Position numbers and translations under genes: made by a program
Notes under the pieces: model-generated
Database searches by the model: none
Told to the model about the DNA's origin: nothing
What the model saw: the letters and a program-made list of their open reading frames with translations, nothing else
Assembly: GCA_905479105.1 (NCBI GenBank)
Contig: CAJQLE010000005.1
Coordinates: forward strand, 1-64,000
Source of the DNA: an uncultured Flavobacteriales bacterium
GTDB lineage: Bacteria > Bacteroidota > Bacteroidia > Flavobacteriales_G > Salibacteraceae
DNA length: 64,000 bases
Reading direction: 5' to 3'
Part shown: positions 54,751 through 61,370 of the stretch, in pieces
How the letters are laid out: the number at the start of each line of letters is the position of its first letter
Numbering within the stretch: the stretch's first letter is position 1

Positions 54751-55137
54751 ATGAAAAAGCATATAGCAACATTAGCCCTCAGCATTATTATCGTTTCAGT
54801 AACTATCGCTCAGAGACCCTTTCATCCTAAAAACATGAGGCATGAAAGTATCGAGTCTTACCAAACTGAACTTAACCTGACGGAAACGCAAATAGATCAG
54901 ATTAATACTGTGCGAGCAGAATACAGAGAAGAAGCACCGTCTCAAAATCGTGGAGAAATGACACCTGAAAAAAGGGAAGAAATGAAAGCTAAGCGAAATG
55001 AGGAAAGAGAAAAGATTCATGCAATTCTCACAGATGAACAAAAAACTAAATTTCAAGAAATCAAAAAAGCGGAACGACAACAACGTGCTGCAGAAAGAAG
55101 CAAAGCAGCCCCAGATACTGAGTCTATTGCTGATTAA
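54751..55137 (+). CDS. Spy/CpxP-like periplasmic protein
   Basis: A 128-residue exported protein: signal peptide MKKHIATLALSIIIVSVTIAQ followed by a highly charged helical domain with the LTxxQ-type motifs LNLTETQIDQINTV and ILTDEQKTKFQEIK that mark the Spy/CpxP family of periplasmic chaperone or stress proteins. A low-complexity, Lys/Arg/Glu-rich middle (TPEKREEMKAKRNEEREK) is also typical. Monocistronic, with a strong terminator. Confidence 0.82.
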   Translation: MKKHIATLALSIIIVSVTIAQRPFHPKNMRHESIESYQTELNLTETQIDQINTVRAEYREEAPSQNRGEMTPEKREEMKAKRNEEREKIHAILTDEQKTKFQEIKKAERQQRAAERSKAAPDTESIAD

Positions 55138-55769: not shown

Positions 55770-58064
55770 TTAAAATTTAAATTGAAGAGTTAAAATAAAA
55801 TTGATTCCAGGCTCATCTGCATAATACCTGAGCCTGTTTAAATAGGATCTATAGTCTTGATTATTAGCGCTTTCCACACCAAAACTGTACTGTAATTGAT
55901 TAGTGGCGATTGGTAAAGCGCCTGATAAGCTTCCTCCTAACAAAACATAGCCAGCAGGTGGATTGGTGTAATCAACACCTAATGGGAAACGCGTTTGTTG
56001 GCGTGTGAAAGAAGAATGAAAAGATACCTTATGAGACCACTTTCGCTCCCAAAGTGAATATTTTACTGATGCATCAACCCGATCGGCAGGAATATTAATA
56101 ATGTATTCGCCATTATTAATCTCATTTGCACGAATTGATTCAACGCCTAAAAAAATATTCAGTTTTGATGTTAGGTGAAATTTAATAGATGCATCAACAC
56201 CTCTAAACCAAGCATCAACGCCAGAATAATAGAACGTTGGAAATGCACCTCGAATTGTCAACGTTGGAGGCTGAGCAGGGCGTAAATAGATATAATTATC
56301 AAATAGGTATGCGAATACCGAAGCATTTACTTCCGTGCGGATATTGAAAATTGAGAGTTTATTTGTGCTCAGAGAAACACTTCCAGAGTGCACAACTTCA
56401 GAGTCAATTGATTCATCTCCAAATTCAATAGCAGCTGCTCCGTGATGTAATCCGGAACTATATAACTCATTAATGGATGGAGCTCTCCATGCCCTTCCAA
56501 AACTCATCATTAGAGTAATTTTCTCGATTTCCTTCGAGACACCTACGTTCCATGAAAGGCCATCAAAAGTCCGCACAGGCGAATACAAGTCATCATCCTG
56601 ATACATAAACGCTTGCTGCCATCTATAATCATAACGTGCTCCACCTTGAAATTCCCATGAACCGATATTGAGGTGATGAATGGTATAAACACCGCCTTGA
56701 TAGTTCCTGAAATTAGGAATGAAGAAACGGCCTTCATACGTATTAGCCTGATTTTCAGAAGCAATTCCGAATTCAAGCTTGTAATTACCGCTCATTCTAT
56801 GTTCATAATGAAGATCAGCTTGATGGGTCGTGATTTCATATTGTAAATCAGCAATAGATGGATCACTAAATGTGCTGACATCAAACTCTTGACGAAGATT
56901 ATATTGCCTTGATATATTGAATTCAACCTTACTCTCCAGCTTTGGCTTCCAGAAGAATCTCGCTGAGGTTATCTCATGGATAACTGACTGATTCGGTGCA
57001 GAAATAGAATAACTAAAAGAATCAGAAAGATTTTGTGGTACTCCCGATTCAATGACCTGTTCTAAGTCAGACAGGTTGCCAATATGCGCGTATGACAAAA
57101 TTCCAAGCTGTGTTTGAATTTGGCTATACTGAATGTCAACCCCATACTTTTCCTTGATCCAAGACAACTGGCCAGATCCGCTAAACTCCTCTTTACCAGT
57201 ATTTTTCAAGTAATAATCTGGTGCTTTGAGATCACCAGCCTTTGTCCCAGAAAGTTGCGCTCTAAAGAATAATGGAAGCTTCTTGGTCAAAGCACCTTGC
57301 AATTCACCTGAAAGCATTCCTTGTCGTCCGTTAGATGAAATACTTGATTTTAGCTTTCCATTTAGCTTTCTGATCTTTCCTAACTCACTCTTCTTGGCAA
57401 TAACCACCCCACCAATAGCTTCAGGGCCATATCTTAAACCACTTGCACCTTGAATAACCTCTAAAGAAGCCACCGAAAGAGGGTCAATTTCAGGGGCATG
57501 TTCACTGCCCCATTGCTGTCCTTGCAATTTAGTATTATCGCTCATGATCACAACCCGATTGCTATGCATACCGTGAATCACGGGTTTAGAGATATTTCCT
57601 CCCGTATTCAAAGACTGAACACCCTGAGATTCATCCAAAAGGCTTGCGAGCGAAACGCCACGATTCAAATCAAGCTTTTCTTTATCGACCTCGACCCTTT
57701 GAGCGATATCTTTATGAGGACGCTTAGCCTCAACAGTCAGTATCTCGAGCATTTCTGAATGATGCTCTAAAAGGAACTCCATTTCCAAATCCGAAAACAA
57801 CTCAATATGAAGAGTATCAGGTTCGCAACCAATATGATTAATCACTAAATCGAGCGTTCCTGAGCATAGCTTATCAAACTTAAAAGTGCCATCCTGATCA
57901 GCTACTGTTGCCCTTTGATCATTGAGAAGTCTAATTTCTGAAAAGGACAAGACAGCCCCATCATGCTCGTCAATTACATGACCAGTCAGGGTTAAATTGC
58001 AAATCTCTTGCGTAAATATGGGAGATGCCACTGCACTAAGCAATAGCATTAAAAAATATTTCAT
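55770..58064 (-). CDS. TonB-dependent outer-membrane receptor, probable metal uptake
   Basis: A 764-residue receptor: signal peptide (to about residue 18), a carboxypeptidase-regulatory-like domain (LTGHVIDEHDGAVLSFSEIR, about 26-105), plug domain (SKPVIHGMHSNRVVIMSDNT, VASLEVIQGASGLRYGPEAI) and a 22-strand barrel ending in FILTLQFKF, with the terminal aromatic. The GMHSNRV and GSEHAPEIDP blocks are those of zinc/copper-type receptors. The small Cys/His protein 32 bp upstream and the downstream lipoprotein support metal transport; which metal is open. Confidence 0.88.
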   Translation of the reverse strand: MKYFLMLLLSAVASPIFTQEICNLTLTGHVIDEHDGAVLSFSEIRLLNDQRATVADQDGTFKFDKLCSGTLDLVINHIGCEPDTLHIELFSDLEMEFLLEHHSEMLEILTVEAKRPHKDIAQRVEVDKEKLDLNRGVSLASLLDESQGVQSLNTGGNISKPVIHGMHSNRVVIMSDNTKLQGQQWGSEHAPEIDPLSVASLEVIQGASGLRYGPEAIGGVVIAKKSELGKIRKLNGKLKSSISSNGRQGMLSGELQGALTKKLPLFFRAQLSGTKAGDLKAPDYYLKNTGKEEFSGSGQLSWIKEKYGVDIQYSQIQTQLGILSYAHIGNLSDLEQVIESGVPQNLSDSFSYSISAPNQSVIHEITSARFFWKPKLESKVEFNISRQYNLRQEFDVSTFSDPSIADLQYEITTHQADLHYEHRMSGNYKLEFGIASENQANTYEGRFFIPNFRNYQGGVYTIHHLNIGSWEFQGGARYDYRWQQAFMYQDDDLYSPVRTFDGLSWNVGVSKEIEKITLMMSFGRAWRAPSINELYSSGLHHGAAAIEFGDESIDSEVVHSGSVSLSTNKLSIFNIRTEVNASVFAYLFDNYIYLRPAQPPTLTIRGAFPTFYYSGVDAWFRGVDASIKFHLTSKLNIFLGVESIRANEINNGEYIINIPADRVDASVKYSLWERKWSHKVSFHSSFTRQQTRFPLGVDYTNPPAGYVLLGGSLSGALPIATNQLQYSFGVESANNQDYRSYLNRLRYYADEPGINFILTLQFKF

Positions 58065-58096
58065 TCAGGGTTGTTTTAGCTAAAATCCAATACCGA

Positions 58097-58408
58097 TTAA
58101 GCTAAAACAGGGGGCGCTCTCCCTTGAGAATAGGATATAGAGACATGCTCAGGATCAATAATTGAAGATGTCTCAAATTGAAAAAACAGAATTAGAAATA
58201 CAAACTCGGCAACTTCAGTCTGATCTACAACAGGCGCATATGAAAAGTCACAAATAGTGCAATCTTCTTGTATGTGTTGTGTTTGAAAACCACTGGTATC
58301 ATGAGAAAAATCCTGATCACATTCGTGAATAAATTCACGAGGCACATTGATAAATGCCAATAGGATTAACAGAAAAAAACTTAAGAATCGTCTCACACTG
58401 CAAATCAA
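58097..58408 (-). CDS. Small Cys/His-rich membrane-anchored protein
   Basis: A 103-residue protein with an N-terminal hydrophobic segment (FLSFFLLILLAFINVPREF), then a Cys/His-rich stretch FIHECDQDFSHDTSGFQTQH followed by EDCTICDFSY, and a second hydrophobic segment (FVFLILFFQF). Small proteins with HxC...CxxC patterns often stand first in metal TonB-receptor operons and may bind the metal in the periplasm. Here it is first of three genes and divergent from the sigma-factor operon. Function inferred from context only. Confidence 0.6.
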   Translation of the reverse strand: MICSVRRFLSFFLLILLAFINVPREFIHECDQDFSHDTSGFQTQHIQEDCTICDFSYAPVVDQTEVAEFVFLILFFQFETSSIIDPEHVSISYSQGRAPPVLA

Positions 58409-58531: not shown

Positions 58532-59089
58532 ATGACTAAACACCAACTCAACCCTGACACTTGGATCAACCTTTATGCTGATCAACTTTTAAGCTACGCC
58601 CTTGTTAGAGTGCCAGAGCGAGATGTAGCTAAAGACCTTGTTCAAGACACGTTTTTTTCCGCGCTTAAATCCAAAGAGAACTTTAGAGGCGAGATTTCTG
58701 AAAAAAATTGGCTTTACCTCGTACTCCGAAGTCGAATCTTAGATTATTACAAAAAGCGAAAAGAAGTGCTGGAATCTGATTTCGGAACCGATGATGACGA
58801 TGACGATTCATTCGATAATAAAGGCCATTGGATGGATGGTAAACTCCCCAAAGAATGGTCAACAGACAACATAATTCAGAATAAAGAATTCATGCAAATA
58901 TTTCTACAATGCAAGTCTGCGTTGAAAGAGGTTCAGGCTCAAGTATTCACTATGAAGTATATAGATGGAGAAGAATCTGAAACCATTTGTAAGGAACTTG
59001 AAATATTATCTTCTAACTATTGGGTATTAATCCATAGGGCAAAACTGCAATTGCGTTCTTGCATCGAGAAAAACTGGTTCGATAAATGA
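58532..59089 (+). CDS. ECF-type RNA polymerase sigma factor
   Basis: A 185-residue extracytoplasmic-function sigma factor. Region 2 (YALVRVPERDVAKDLVQDTF, WLYLVLRSRILDYYKKRKEV) and region 4 (EVQAQVFTMKYIDGEESETI followed by ELEILSSNYWVLIHRAKLQL) are both present, joined by an acidic linker (FGTDDDDDDSFD). It heads an operon: the anti-sigma gene overlaps its stop by 4 bp and the Cys-motif precursor, DUF692 and DUF2063 genes follow. It likely directs transcription of this locus and maybe of the divergent metal-uptake operon. Confidence 0.92.
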   Translation: MTKHQLNPDTWINLYADQLLSYALVRVPERDVAKDLVQDTFFSALKSKENFRGEISEKNWLYLVLRSRILDYYKKRKEVLESDFGTDDDDDDSFDNKGHWMDGKLPKEWSTDNIIQNKEFMQIFLQCKSALKEVQAQVFTMKYIDGEESETICKELEILSSNYWVLIHRAKLQLRSCIEKNWFDK

Positions 59090-59319
59090 TAAACTGTAAA
59101 GAGTCAACGCGACTAACAATTAAGAAAGAAGAGAATAAAATAACTCTAAGAGAAAGAATAGAGCTATCTTTTCACTTAATGATGTGCAAATTTTGCAGTG
59201 CTTTTAATGTTCAAAACTCATGGATAAATGGAGTCTCAAAACATGCAGAGGCTCATGATTCTTTTTCTGAATCTGAAAAGCAAGATCTTGAAGTACGTAT
59301 GAAGGATTCGACTAAATAA
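59086..59319 (+). CDS. Miniature zinc-binding (ZAS-type) anti-sigma factor
   Basis: A 77-residue soluble protein with C4 ... H30-x3-C34-x2-C37 (INCKEST, SFHLMMCKFC), the zinc anti-sigma (ZAS) pattern. It overlaps the sigma gene by 4 bp, as co-translated sigma/anti-sigma pairs do. There is no transmembrane segment and no sensor domain, so the zinc site itself, or another metal or thiol oxidant at it, is the plausible sensor. Release of the sigma factor would then turn on the downstream genes. Confidence 0.78.
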   Translation: MINCKESTRLTIKKEENKITLRERIELSFHLMMCKFCSAFNVQNSWINGVSKHAEAHDSFSESEKQDLEVRMKDSTK

Positions 59320-59345: not shown

Positions 59346-59750
59346 ATGAAAAACACAAACAAAGGTTTAGGTGCATTAATCACCGGGACATTAATGGCTG
59401 GAGCTCTTTTAGGGACTTCTAATGCTAATGAGTTATTCTCTTATAGTGATCTGGGTTCTGGTTCTGAGCTTAGAGCTGATCTATTGGACGCTTCTAATAC
59501 AGGATTTAAATCTCCAGAAGGTAAATGCGGTGAAGCAAAGGCTGATGAAAAATCAGAATCAAAAGCTGATGATTCTAAAGCTGCTGAGCATAAGTGTGGA
59601 GAAGGAAAGTGTGGCGAAGCGAAAGCTGACATGAAGCCAGCTGATTCTAAGGCTGCTGAACACAAATGCGGTGAAGGTAAAGCTGAAATGAAAATGGAAG
59701 AGAAAGACGCGAAGTCTGACAAAAAAGCGAAGGCAGTAAAGCCTAACTAA
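59346..59750 (+). CDS. HvfA-like RiPP precursor with EGKCG/EHKCG motifs
   Basis: A 134-residue exported low-complexity peptide. Residues 1-27 look like a signal peptide (GALITGTLMAGALLGTSNAN), 28-55 are a leader-like segment, and the rest is Lys/Glu/Ala-rich with four Cys (61, 84, 89, 108), all in KCG: EGKCG at 58-62 and 86-90, EHKCG at 81-85 and 105-109. A DSKAAEHKCGEGK unit is repeated. EGKCG Cys motifs are those changed by DUF692 enzymes in HvfA/bufferin-type RiPPs, giving Cu-binding heterocycles. The DUF692 gene follows at once. Metal and modification here are inference. Confidence 0.85.
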   Translation: MKNTNKGLGALITGTLMAGALLGTSNANELFSYSDLGSGSELRADLLDASNTGFKSPEGKCGEAKADEKSESKADDSKAAEHKCGEGKCGEAKADMKPADSKAAEHKCGEGKAEMKMEEKDAKSDKKAKAVKPN

Positions 59751-59800: not shown

Positions 59801-60640
59801 ATGTCAAAACACGTAGGAATAGGATACCGCAAGGATTTTGGATCAGCTTTTTTAGAAAGTGATGTTCTCGATCCTGCATTTGTGGAAGTAGCGCCAGAAA
59901 ATTGGATAGATATTGGTGGTTATTGGAAAAAAGAGTTTTCTAAAGTAGCTGACAAATATCCAATCTACACACACGGACTTTCGCTTTCGATTGGAAGCCC
60001 AGATCCCATTGATTGGGATTTTCTCAAAAAAATTAAATCCTTCATGCAAGAATGGGACGTCAAAGTCTATTCTGAGCATTTAAGCTACAGCAAGTGCGAC
60101 AACGCGCATATTTACGACCTTCTTCCCATACCATTCCGAGAGGATGCTGTTAAGCATATTTCTAAGCGAATAAAAGAAGTTCAAGACTTTTTAGGGCGTA
60201 AGCTGGTTATTGAAATCGTTTCCTACTACACCCCTGTCGCAGCTGAAATGAGTGAAGTTGAATTCATTAACTCCATACTCAAAGAATCCGATTGTGAATT
60301 GCTCTTTGATATCAACAATGTTTATGTCAATGCATTTAATCACAACTACGATCCAAAACAATTTATTGAGCAACTCGATCTTTCAAGCGTAAAGTACATT
60401 CACATGGCAGGCCATGAAAAAGTGAGTGATGATCTCATCATCGACACTCACGGTCAAGCCATAATTGATCCCGTATATGATTTATTTGAATTCGCTATTT
60501 CAAAATTGGATCAACCAGTTCCAGTTTTGTTAGAGCGCGATTTCAATATTCCTGAGATGGAAGAATTGGCAGCAGAAATGAATCAATTGGAATCAATCTG
60601 TCAAAAACAATGGAACCATGAGCCAATCATTGCACACTGA
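59801..60640 (+). CDS. MNIO-family (DUF692) peptide-modifying oxidase, HvfB/MbnB-like
   Basis: A 279-residue TIM-barrel enzyme of the multinuclear non-heme iron oxidase family. Metal-site and core motifs: VEVAPENWI (E29-E33), THGLSLSIGS (H58), YSEHLSYS (E92/H93), IEIVSYYTP (E138), FDINNVYVNAFNH (D170, N173, H181), IHMAGHE (H201, H205), DTHG (D215, H217) and LLERDFNIP (E245). The usual ENVSSY appears as EIVSYY. It should oxidise Cys of the adjacent precursor with O2. It starts one base after the terminator T tract, and its 3' end overlaps the DUF2063 gene by 23 bp. Confidence 0.92.
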   Translation: MSKHVGIGYRKDFGSAFLESDVLDPAFVEVAPENWIDIGGYWKKEFSKVADKYPIYTHGLSLSIGSPDPIDWDFLKKIKSFMQEWDVKVYSEHLSYSKCDNAHIYDLLPIPFREDAVKHISKRIKEVQDFLGRKLVIEIVSYYTPVAAEMSEVEFINSILKESDCELLFDINNVYVNAFNHNYDPKQFIEQLDLSSVKYIHMAGHEKVSDDLIIDTHGQAIIDPVYDLFEFAISKLDQPVPVLLERDFNIPEMEELAAEMNQLESICQKQWNHEPIIAH

Positions 60641-61370
60641 TACCATTGAGCAGCAAAGTTTGTTGGCAAAGTTTTGTCGAGATGGAGTTGAACCTTCACT
60701 AGAAGGAGTTACTGATGGTCGTCTGCACAATTACAGAAGACTAGTGTTTGGAGTAGTTAGAGAGGCTTTGAGCAGCACCTACCCGCTTACTGTAAACCTT
60801 CTCACCAATAAAGAGTGGAGTGTTTTAATCCAAGAATTCTTCGAAAATCATAATTGCCAAGACCCACAAGTTTGGAAAATGCCTCTTGAATTGATCGAAT
60901 TCACAGAAAAGCACCAATCATCATTAACGAAGAAATATCCTCTCTTAATAGAACTTTTAAACTTTGAATGGAAAGAAGTTGAATATTACATGATGCCTGA
61001 TGAGAAGTTCCCCGAAGAAAGAACCTCAGATTTCTTCAGCGATCTTTGGGTTTTTAATCCCGAATCAGAGATTTTAACGCTTTCGTATCCGCTCCATTTA
61101 AAAAACGCACGATTCATTTCTATCAGTGATGAAGGACAATACTTCTGTCTAATTTTCAGGCAACCTAAAACTTTCAAAGTGAAGTTTTTAAACCTCTCAC
61201 CTTTCTTCGCTTGGTTAATTGCTACCATGCAAACTGAGCCCATTTCAGTTGATGAACTTTCACCTGTTATTAAGAAGGAATTTGGCATTACCGATGTCCA
61301 GCAATTCAAACAAAACATTGAGCCTTTCTACAAAAAGCTCTGTCTTGATGGAATGATCCTCTCCAGTTAA
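60618..61370 (+). CDS. DUF2063 partner protein (HvfC/MbnC-like)
   Basis: A 250-residue protein. The N-terminal DUF2063 domain (LAKFCRDGVEPSLEGVTDGR, YRRLVFGVVREALSSTYPLT, about 14-95) is typical of the partner that recruits the precursor to the DUF692 enzyme. The C-terminal half (about 130-250, FAWLIATMQTEPISVDELSP) resembles the winged PqqD-like/second domain of HvfC proteins. The 23-bp overlap with the DUF692 gene implies coupled translation and a complex of the two. Spacing to DUF962 is 25 bp. Confidence 0.88.
   Translation: MSQSLHTDTIEQQSLLAKFCRDGVEPSLEGVTDGRLHNYRRLVFGVVREALSSTYPLTVNLLTNKEWSVLIQEFFENHNCQDPQVWKMPLELIEFTEKHQSSLTKKYPLLIELLNFEWKEVEYYMMPDEKFPEERTSDFFSDLWVFNPESEILTLSYPLHLKNARFISISDEGQYFCLIFRQPKTFKVKFLNLSPFFAWLIATMQTEPISVDELSPVIKKEFGITDVQQFKQNIEPFYKKLCLDGMILSS

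Follow-up and report, generated by a model that had tools for sequence, protein, structure and literature searches.

The open reading frame at positions 59346 to 59750 (+) of the window, by which we mean the entire 64,000-nucleotide stretch analysed, taken from an uncultured Flavobacteriales bacterium, is probably the gene for a precursor peptide of the HvfA (oxazolin/captophorin) kind, from which a thiooxazole-bearing copper buffer of the periplasm would be made, a reading to which we assign a likelihood of roughly three in four. The precursor mixes EGKCG with EHKCG, and by the sequences compared here EHKCG is no local oddity; it is a lineage-wide variant confined to the first KCG of a run or to an isolated KCG. 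The class, its chemistry and the gene trio are already known, and the first-site histidine rule is a lineage-specific variant of them. We found neither this rule nor any paper with EHKCG in the literature searched.

The variant bears on a question about a young class of RiPPs, namely which residues around a thiooxazole set how tightly metal is bound and how the enzyme processes its substrate. The histidine of Bacteroidota, present at first sites, never at second ones, and absent from a Gammaproteobacterial sample chosen in like manner, is a natural and strongly conserved variant, with which it can be tested if the side chains next to a thiooxazole take part in metal binding or serve to guide the enzyme.

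The precursor and its enzymes

The precursor has 134 residues and begins with ATG. Translation confirms the original prediction that it contains four cysteines only (residues 61, 84, 89 and 108), every one of them within KCG, in two EGKCG and two EHKCG motifs (E58-GKCG, E81-HKCG, E86-GKCG, E105-HKCG), and that the arrays EHKCGEGKCG (residues 81-90) and EHKCGEGKAE (105-114) are both present. The first cassette is a lone EGKCG with Cys61 (59517..59531, +). The second joins EHKCG, with His82 and Cys84 (59586..59600, +), to EGKCG, with Cys89 (59601..59615, +), and the third joins EHKCG, with His106 and Cys108 (59658..59672, +), to EGKAE, a Cys-less remnant of its second site (59673..59687, +); both EHKCG sites follow the position rule described below. 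A chance origin of the four KCG motifs was rejected, as none of 200,000 shuffles of residues 31-134 reached four and the maximum of three arose in two shuffles.

Residues 1 to about 29 (MKNTNKGLGALITGTLMAGALLGTSNAN; 59346..59432, +) probably form a Sec-type leader. The n-, h- and c-regions are clear by eye, the approximate boundary was likewise placed by eye, and the low-confidence structure model places a helix at 8-18; in HvfA the Sec signal doubles as the leader (PMC13419390). On the leader side of the core lies DLGSGSELRADLLD (59448..59489, +), a conserved stretch with a predicted helix at 39-51 (pLDDT about 69) that is a candidate recognition element for HvfC; Gly37 and Arg43 are invariant across 25 Bacteroidota precursors. 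The precursor model is of low confidence overall (pLDDT 52) with a core predicted to be disordered, and the beta-helix fold proposed for long members of the family (PMC12452194) is absent from it.

Against NF050137, the KCGExKCG domain of the HvfA family, the precursor scores 37.4 bits (cut-off 19.5), while against the HvfA equivalog NF050188 it scores 41.4 bits, under the cut-off of 95; by these thresholds it falls in the HvfA-type (Buf_EGKCG, captophorin) family and outside HvfA sensu stricto. Adjoining it is a gene for an HvfB-type multinuclear non-haem iron oxidase (MNIO) of 279 residues that carries the Lys-Cys group residues (59801..60640, +; PF05114 323 bits; NF003818 380.6, cut-off 360; nearest PDB entry 3BWW). 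The MNIO gene is overlapped by that of an HvfC-like (HvfC/PME1) partner with DUF2063 and NGO1945_C domains (60618..61370, +), which matches PF09836 (53.4 bits) and PF22106 (40 bits) above their cut-offs and the stricter NF050145 at 124.5, under its cut-off of 142. The NF050137 match and these two genes directly downstream support the prediction that the KCG cysteines would be modified by the neighbouring enzyme. The precursor has no Pfam match up to E = 10, hence no DUF2282, and so is not a bufferin of the Buf1 type; nor was a methanobactin MbnB-type enzyme found, TIGR04159 giving 55.4 bits against a cut-off of 325.

Among the known systems closest to it is that of oxazolin/HvfA from Haemophilus influenzae (HvfABC, HvfX), with which it shares repeated KCG cassettes, HvfB-type MNIO and HvfC partner and probably the Sec-type leader, and in which six cysteines of HvfA become 5-thiooxazoles (PMC13419390). 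However, HvfA contains AEGKCGEGKCG only, whereas the later cassettes of the window precursor start with EHKCG, and the latter has one single-site cassette and one cassette without its second Cys. The window also differs from HvfABC in having sigma and anti-sigma genes upstream and no adjacent DoxX (HvfX). The captophorins fontiphorin (FonABC) and gonophorin (NgoABC) share the Lys-Cys group signature of the MNIO (Arg-Arg/Lys, Asp-Phe), the DUF2063 partner (PME1) and EGKCG-like 5-mers, but have been described mainly from Pseudomonadota, and the part of the captophorin text available to us contains no EHKCG (PMC12668002). Bulbicupramide/MmrA of Microbulbifer likewise has two-KCG cassettes, which carry thiooxazoles and bind Cu(I) (PMC12538549), although MmrA has EGKCG only and differs in lineage and regulation. 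Finally, the bufferins Buf1 (DUF2282) and Buf2 also combine an MNIO with a DUF2063 partner, and Buf1 clusters carry sigma/anti-sigma genes (PMC12452194), but both precursor families are unrelated to the window precursor.

Gene neighbourhood and regulation

The order precursor-MNIO-DUF2063 is repeated in relatives of the window locus. In the closest of these, a Salibacteraceae MAG (L003) and Flavobacteriales UBA4422 (L004), the entire block is kept, extending to the Mpo1-like and GtrA genes downstream and to the divergent TonB receptor and its accompanying small His/Cys protein. Upstream of the precursor are a TIGR02943-like ECF sigma factor (58532..59089, +), assigned by its profile match and by an order shared with related loci, and a 77-residue zinc-type (ZAS) anti-sigma factor (59086..59319, +; NF052368 52.9 bits, cut-off 50) with the motif H30-x3-C34-x2-C37 in its sequence. 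Of the 27 Bacteroidota loci located through their precursor, 12 have a sigma gene upstream and 11 of those 12 an anti-sigma gene as well; both genes occur in 6 of 12 further loci fetched. In the cultured relative Salibacter halophilus (L014), the precursor has no sigma gene detected next to it. Such a pair (58532-59319 in the window) thus directly precedes the EGKCG-type cluster in many, not all, Bacteroidota loci. In the literature searched, this linkage is described for Buf1 clusters only and not for EGKCG clusters, and Bacteroidota clusters of the HvfA-type class with ECF sigma and ZAS anti-sigma factors are little described. Alignment of the regions upstream of the sigma genes gave no promoter motif worth claiming, and the two DoxX matches that lie elsewhere in the genome are unlinked to the cluster.

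The region at 55770-58408 (-) holds the divergent TonB-dependent receptor, which has a weak likeness to heme/ZnuD receptors, and a 103-residue His/Cys-containing membrane protein. Both adjoin the cluster in L003, L004 and L015 as well, and the receptor is kept in L007, an adjacency suggesting a link to metal. An LTXXQ/Spy-like periplasmic protein with a weak Metal_resist match (54751-55137, +) has counterparts close to the clusters of L003 and L007. At another locus (L148:5599-6423) an MNIO about 60% identical to that of the window has its partner and no KCG precursor upstream.

Position of histidine in the KCG motifs

Because EHKCGEGK was among the seeds of our initial precursor search, which was thus biased towards His, counts were redone on loci chosen by their MNIO (family, phylum and Gammaproteobacterial sample). 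The family set comprises 20 loci of the window's family picked by MNIO alone, in all 20 of which a precursor was found. Each KCG was assigned as first-of-run, isolated or later by the presence of another KC five residues before it. The original prediction was open to refutation by an absence of EHKCG from close homologues; clearly the opposite was found, with EHKCG or DHKCG conserved across the window's family and [E/D]HKC present in 17 of the 20 precursors. Within this set His occupies 24/43 first-of-run sites, 4/13 isolated sites and 0/58 later sites, and among all 93 distinct precursors it occupies 57/247 first sites vs 0/281 later ones. His makes up 50% of the residues at first or isolated sites as against 0.9% in the linkers, while Lys, the commonest linker residue (26%), is nearly absent from the position before the motif's own Lys at those sites. 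The P values for these contrasts (8e-12 by Fisher's test for first vs later sites in the family set, 3e-31 for the enrichment over linkers) treat sites as independent and overstate the evidence, because relatedness links the sites of one precursor and the precursors of one clade, but the contrast of 0 with 24 stands without them.

The motif lies in the context K-x-x-[E/D]-H-K-C-G-E-G-K-C-G. Most first cassettes of Bacteroidota have Ala or Leu at this position, His being placed in middle and last cassettes; the first site of a run also takes Gln, Met, Ser and Gly. His is therefore not essential to the class.

As a control, 90 Gammaproteobacterial loci chosen by HvfB yielded 61 distinct precursors, none of which contains HKC; Gly stands at 129 of their 132 first sites. 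The seeded search returned sporadic EHKCG cases outside Bacteroidota, nine precursors from Pseudomonadota (Cellvibrio, Nevskiaceae and others) in which His is again limited to sites that are first or isolated, and since they were found with the EHKCGEGK seed they speak for the existence of such cases and not for their frequency. On a quick MNIO tree with many weak forks, Bacteroidota and Pseudomonadota separate, the combined phylum/His labels take 10 changes, and the Gammaproteobacterial His clusters take three.

Three precursors deserve separate mention. One (L061:4932-5342) has an extra Cys-rich stretch, KKCSDPNCKNKNCKEGE, between KCG cassettes. Two from Flavobacteriales (L038:2129-2482 and L068:630-977) have EHKC motifs with no MNIO in the flank fetched, and that of L038 also has EHKCSGEKCSKCHH.

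Processing of the cysteines

We propose that the sigma/anti-sigma pair would turn the operon on, that the HvfC-like protein would hold the Sec-type leader, and that the MNIO, a di-iron enzyme using O2, would convert the Cys of each KCG, in EGKCG and EHKCG alike, to a 5-thiooxazole. In studied relatives each Cys loses four hydrogens in this reaction; the mass change expected here would be -4 Da per Cys and -16 Da in total. The precursor chain would be exported, and its thiooxazole thiols would chelate Cu(I). Copper binding by the window peptide is presumed by analogy with the two-thiooxazole cassette, which binds Cu(I); against the copper-buffer reading, the Microbulbifer mmr genes are not induced by copper and the protection of E. 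coli is slight (PMC12538549).

The enzyme signatures are intact. In FonB the motif-reading residues are reported to be Arg15/Arg16, the catalytic base Asp249 and Phe250 (PMC12668002), to which R10-K11 and D247-F248 of the window MNIO correspond when matched by motif and not by structure, the second Arg being Lys. R10-K/R11 and D247-F248 are kept in all clusters with a KCG precursor, whether or not it has His, bar conservative swaps, and the pattern is mostly missing from MNIOs without one. The window MNIO also has the Asn, Asp and His counterparts of HvfB N175, D242 and H244, site-3 residues that are reported to be essential (PMC13419390). FonBC processed every non-Pro change tried at motif position 2, the text being silent on whether these included His, and likewise non-Pro changes at position 1, except Arg (PMC12668002). 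Given this tolerance and the intact motif-reading residues, modification of all four KCG cysteines would be expected.

Near the iron site, the MNIOs have an almost universal E-N-[V/T/P]-S at residues 137-141, beside a likely iron-ligand Glu. The window clade, L010 and L112 have E-I-V-S instead, a change of Asn to Ile seen in 10 of the 33 Bacteroidota MNIOs that accompany a KCG precursor.

Role of the histidine

The position rule suggests a clip in which an inner Gly or Ala separates two thiooxazoles and the outer residue, His in Bacteroidota, may be a donor. The inner spacer CG-E-[G/A]-KC is small, so that both thiols could reach one metal, leaving the outer position free for a donor. We tentatively favour, at somewhat short of even odds, the hypothesis that His, standing at the outer rim of each clip of two thiooxazoles, acts as an auxiliary ligand for soft metals or as a tuning residue. 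The original proposal of His as an added metal ligand fits both the position rule and the enrichment, which are compatible with it and do not prove it. More tentatively still, the built-in imidazole may provide Bacteroidota HvfA-type peptides with a copper site of mixed N and S donors, or with release that depends on pH, neither of which is present in oxazolin, fontiphorin, gonophorin and bulbicupramide as characterised.

The main rival to a metal-ligand role, to which we give somewhat lower odds, is that His is a feature of the substrate. It would position the first site of each cassette within the MNIO/HvfC complex of Bacteroidota, for instance against the aromatic Phe/Tyr that replaces Leu before a conserved Arg of the MNIO, or would determine in which order or direction the sites are processed. 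That Arg reads Glu1 of the motif in FonB (PMC12668002), and the residue next to it, MNIO position 9, is F/Y in Bacteroidota vs L in Pseudomonadota; a His confined to the sites that open a run would also suit such a role. However, the aromatic is common to Bacteroidota clusters without His and Leu is kept in Gammaproteobacterial clusters with it, so His and the position-9 aromatic do not co-vary beyond phylum. Co-variation of His with other MNIO residues was also rejected, as only alignment column 86 split the seven Gammaproteobacterial His clusters that have an MNIO from the rest, with no match to Bacteroidota.

It is considerably less probable that the residue before Lys is simply unconstrained at first sites and that His reflects drift or inherited composition. 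Seven different residues do occur there, and the changes that FonBC tolerates (PMC12668002) would allow it, but His has a 50% share there against its rarity in linkers, and Lys, the commonest residue of the linkers, is nearly absent. Moreover, His is retained through synonymous change and occurs at the same position only, in both phyla.

The departure of EHKCG from canonical EGKCG had raised the possibility that the enzyme skips these sites, giving a mature peptide of alternating modified and free Cys. We consider this improbable: the non-Pro changes tried at position 2 in FonBC were all tolerated, the MNIO residues that read the motif are unaltered, the Cys that follows His is conserved throughout the window's family and the flanking Lys and Gly are intact. 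On account of this tolerance and these unaltered residues, a mixture of modified and free Cys has no positive support. Least probable of all is an unmodified metallothionein-like protein binding metal through free thiols and imidazoles, which would explain Cys and His within short repeats but not the operon with MNIO and partner, the NF050137 match and the repetition of the trio across the window's family.

Repeat history and the Cys-less third EGK

The two copies of SKAAEHKCGEGK in the precursor have the same amino acids, yet 8 of their 12 codons show synonymous differences, among them CAT vs CAC for His. This divergence excludes a recent DNA duplication and indicates that the repeat has been kept by selection.

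The third EGK lacks its Cys, as was originally noted, and comparison with the sister locus L004 points to a loss by deletion and not by substitution. The codons of L004 run CAC AAA TGC GGT GAA GGT AAA (TGT GGC GAA GCA AAA) GCT GAA ATG. The window has the identical first seven and passes straight to GCT GAA ATG, the 15 nt in brackets (TGTGGCGAAGCAAAA, encoding CGEAK) being missing. Since the codons match around the gap, the likeliest cause of the missing Cys is that these 15 nt, and with them CGEAK, were deleted in frame between AAA codons. The same Cys-less state of the third EGK is found in L003.
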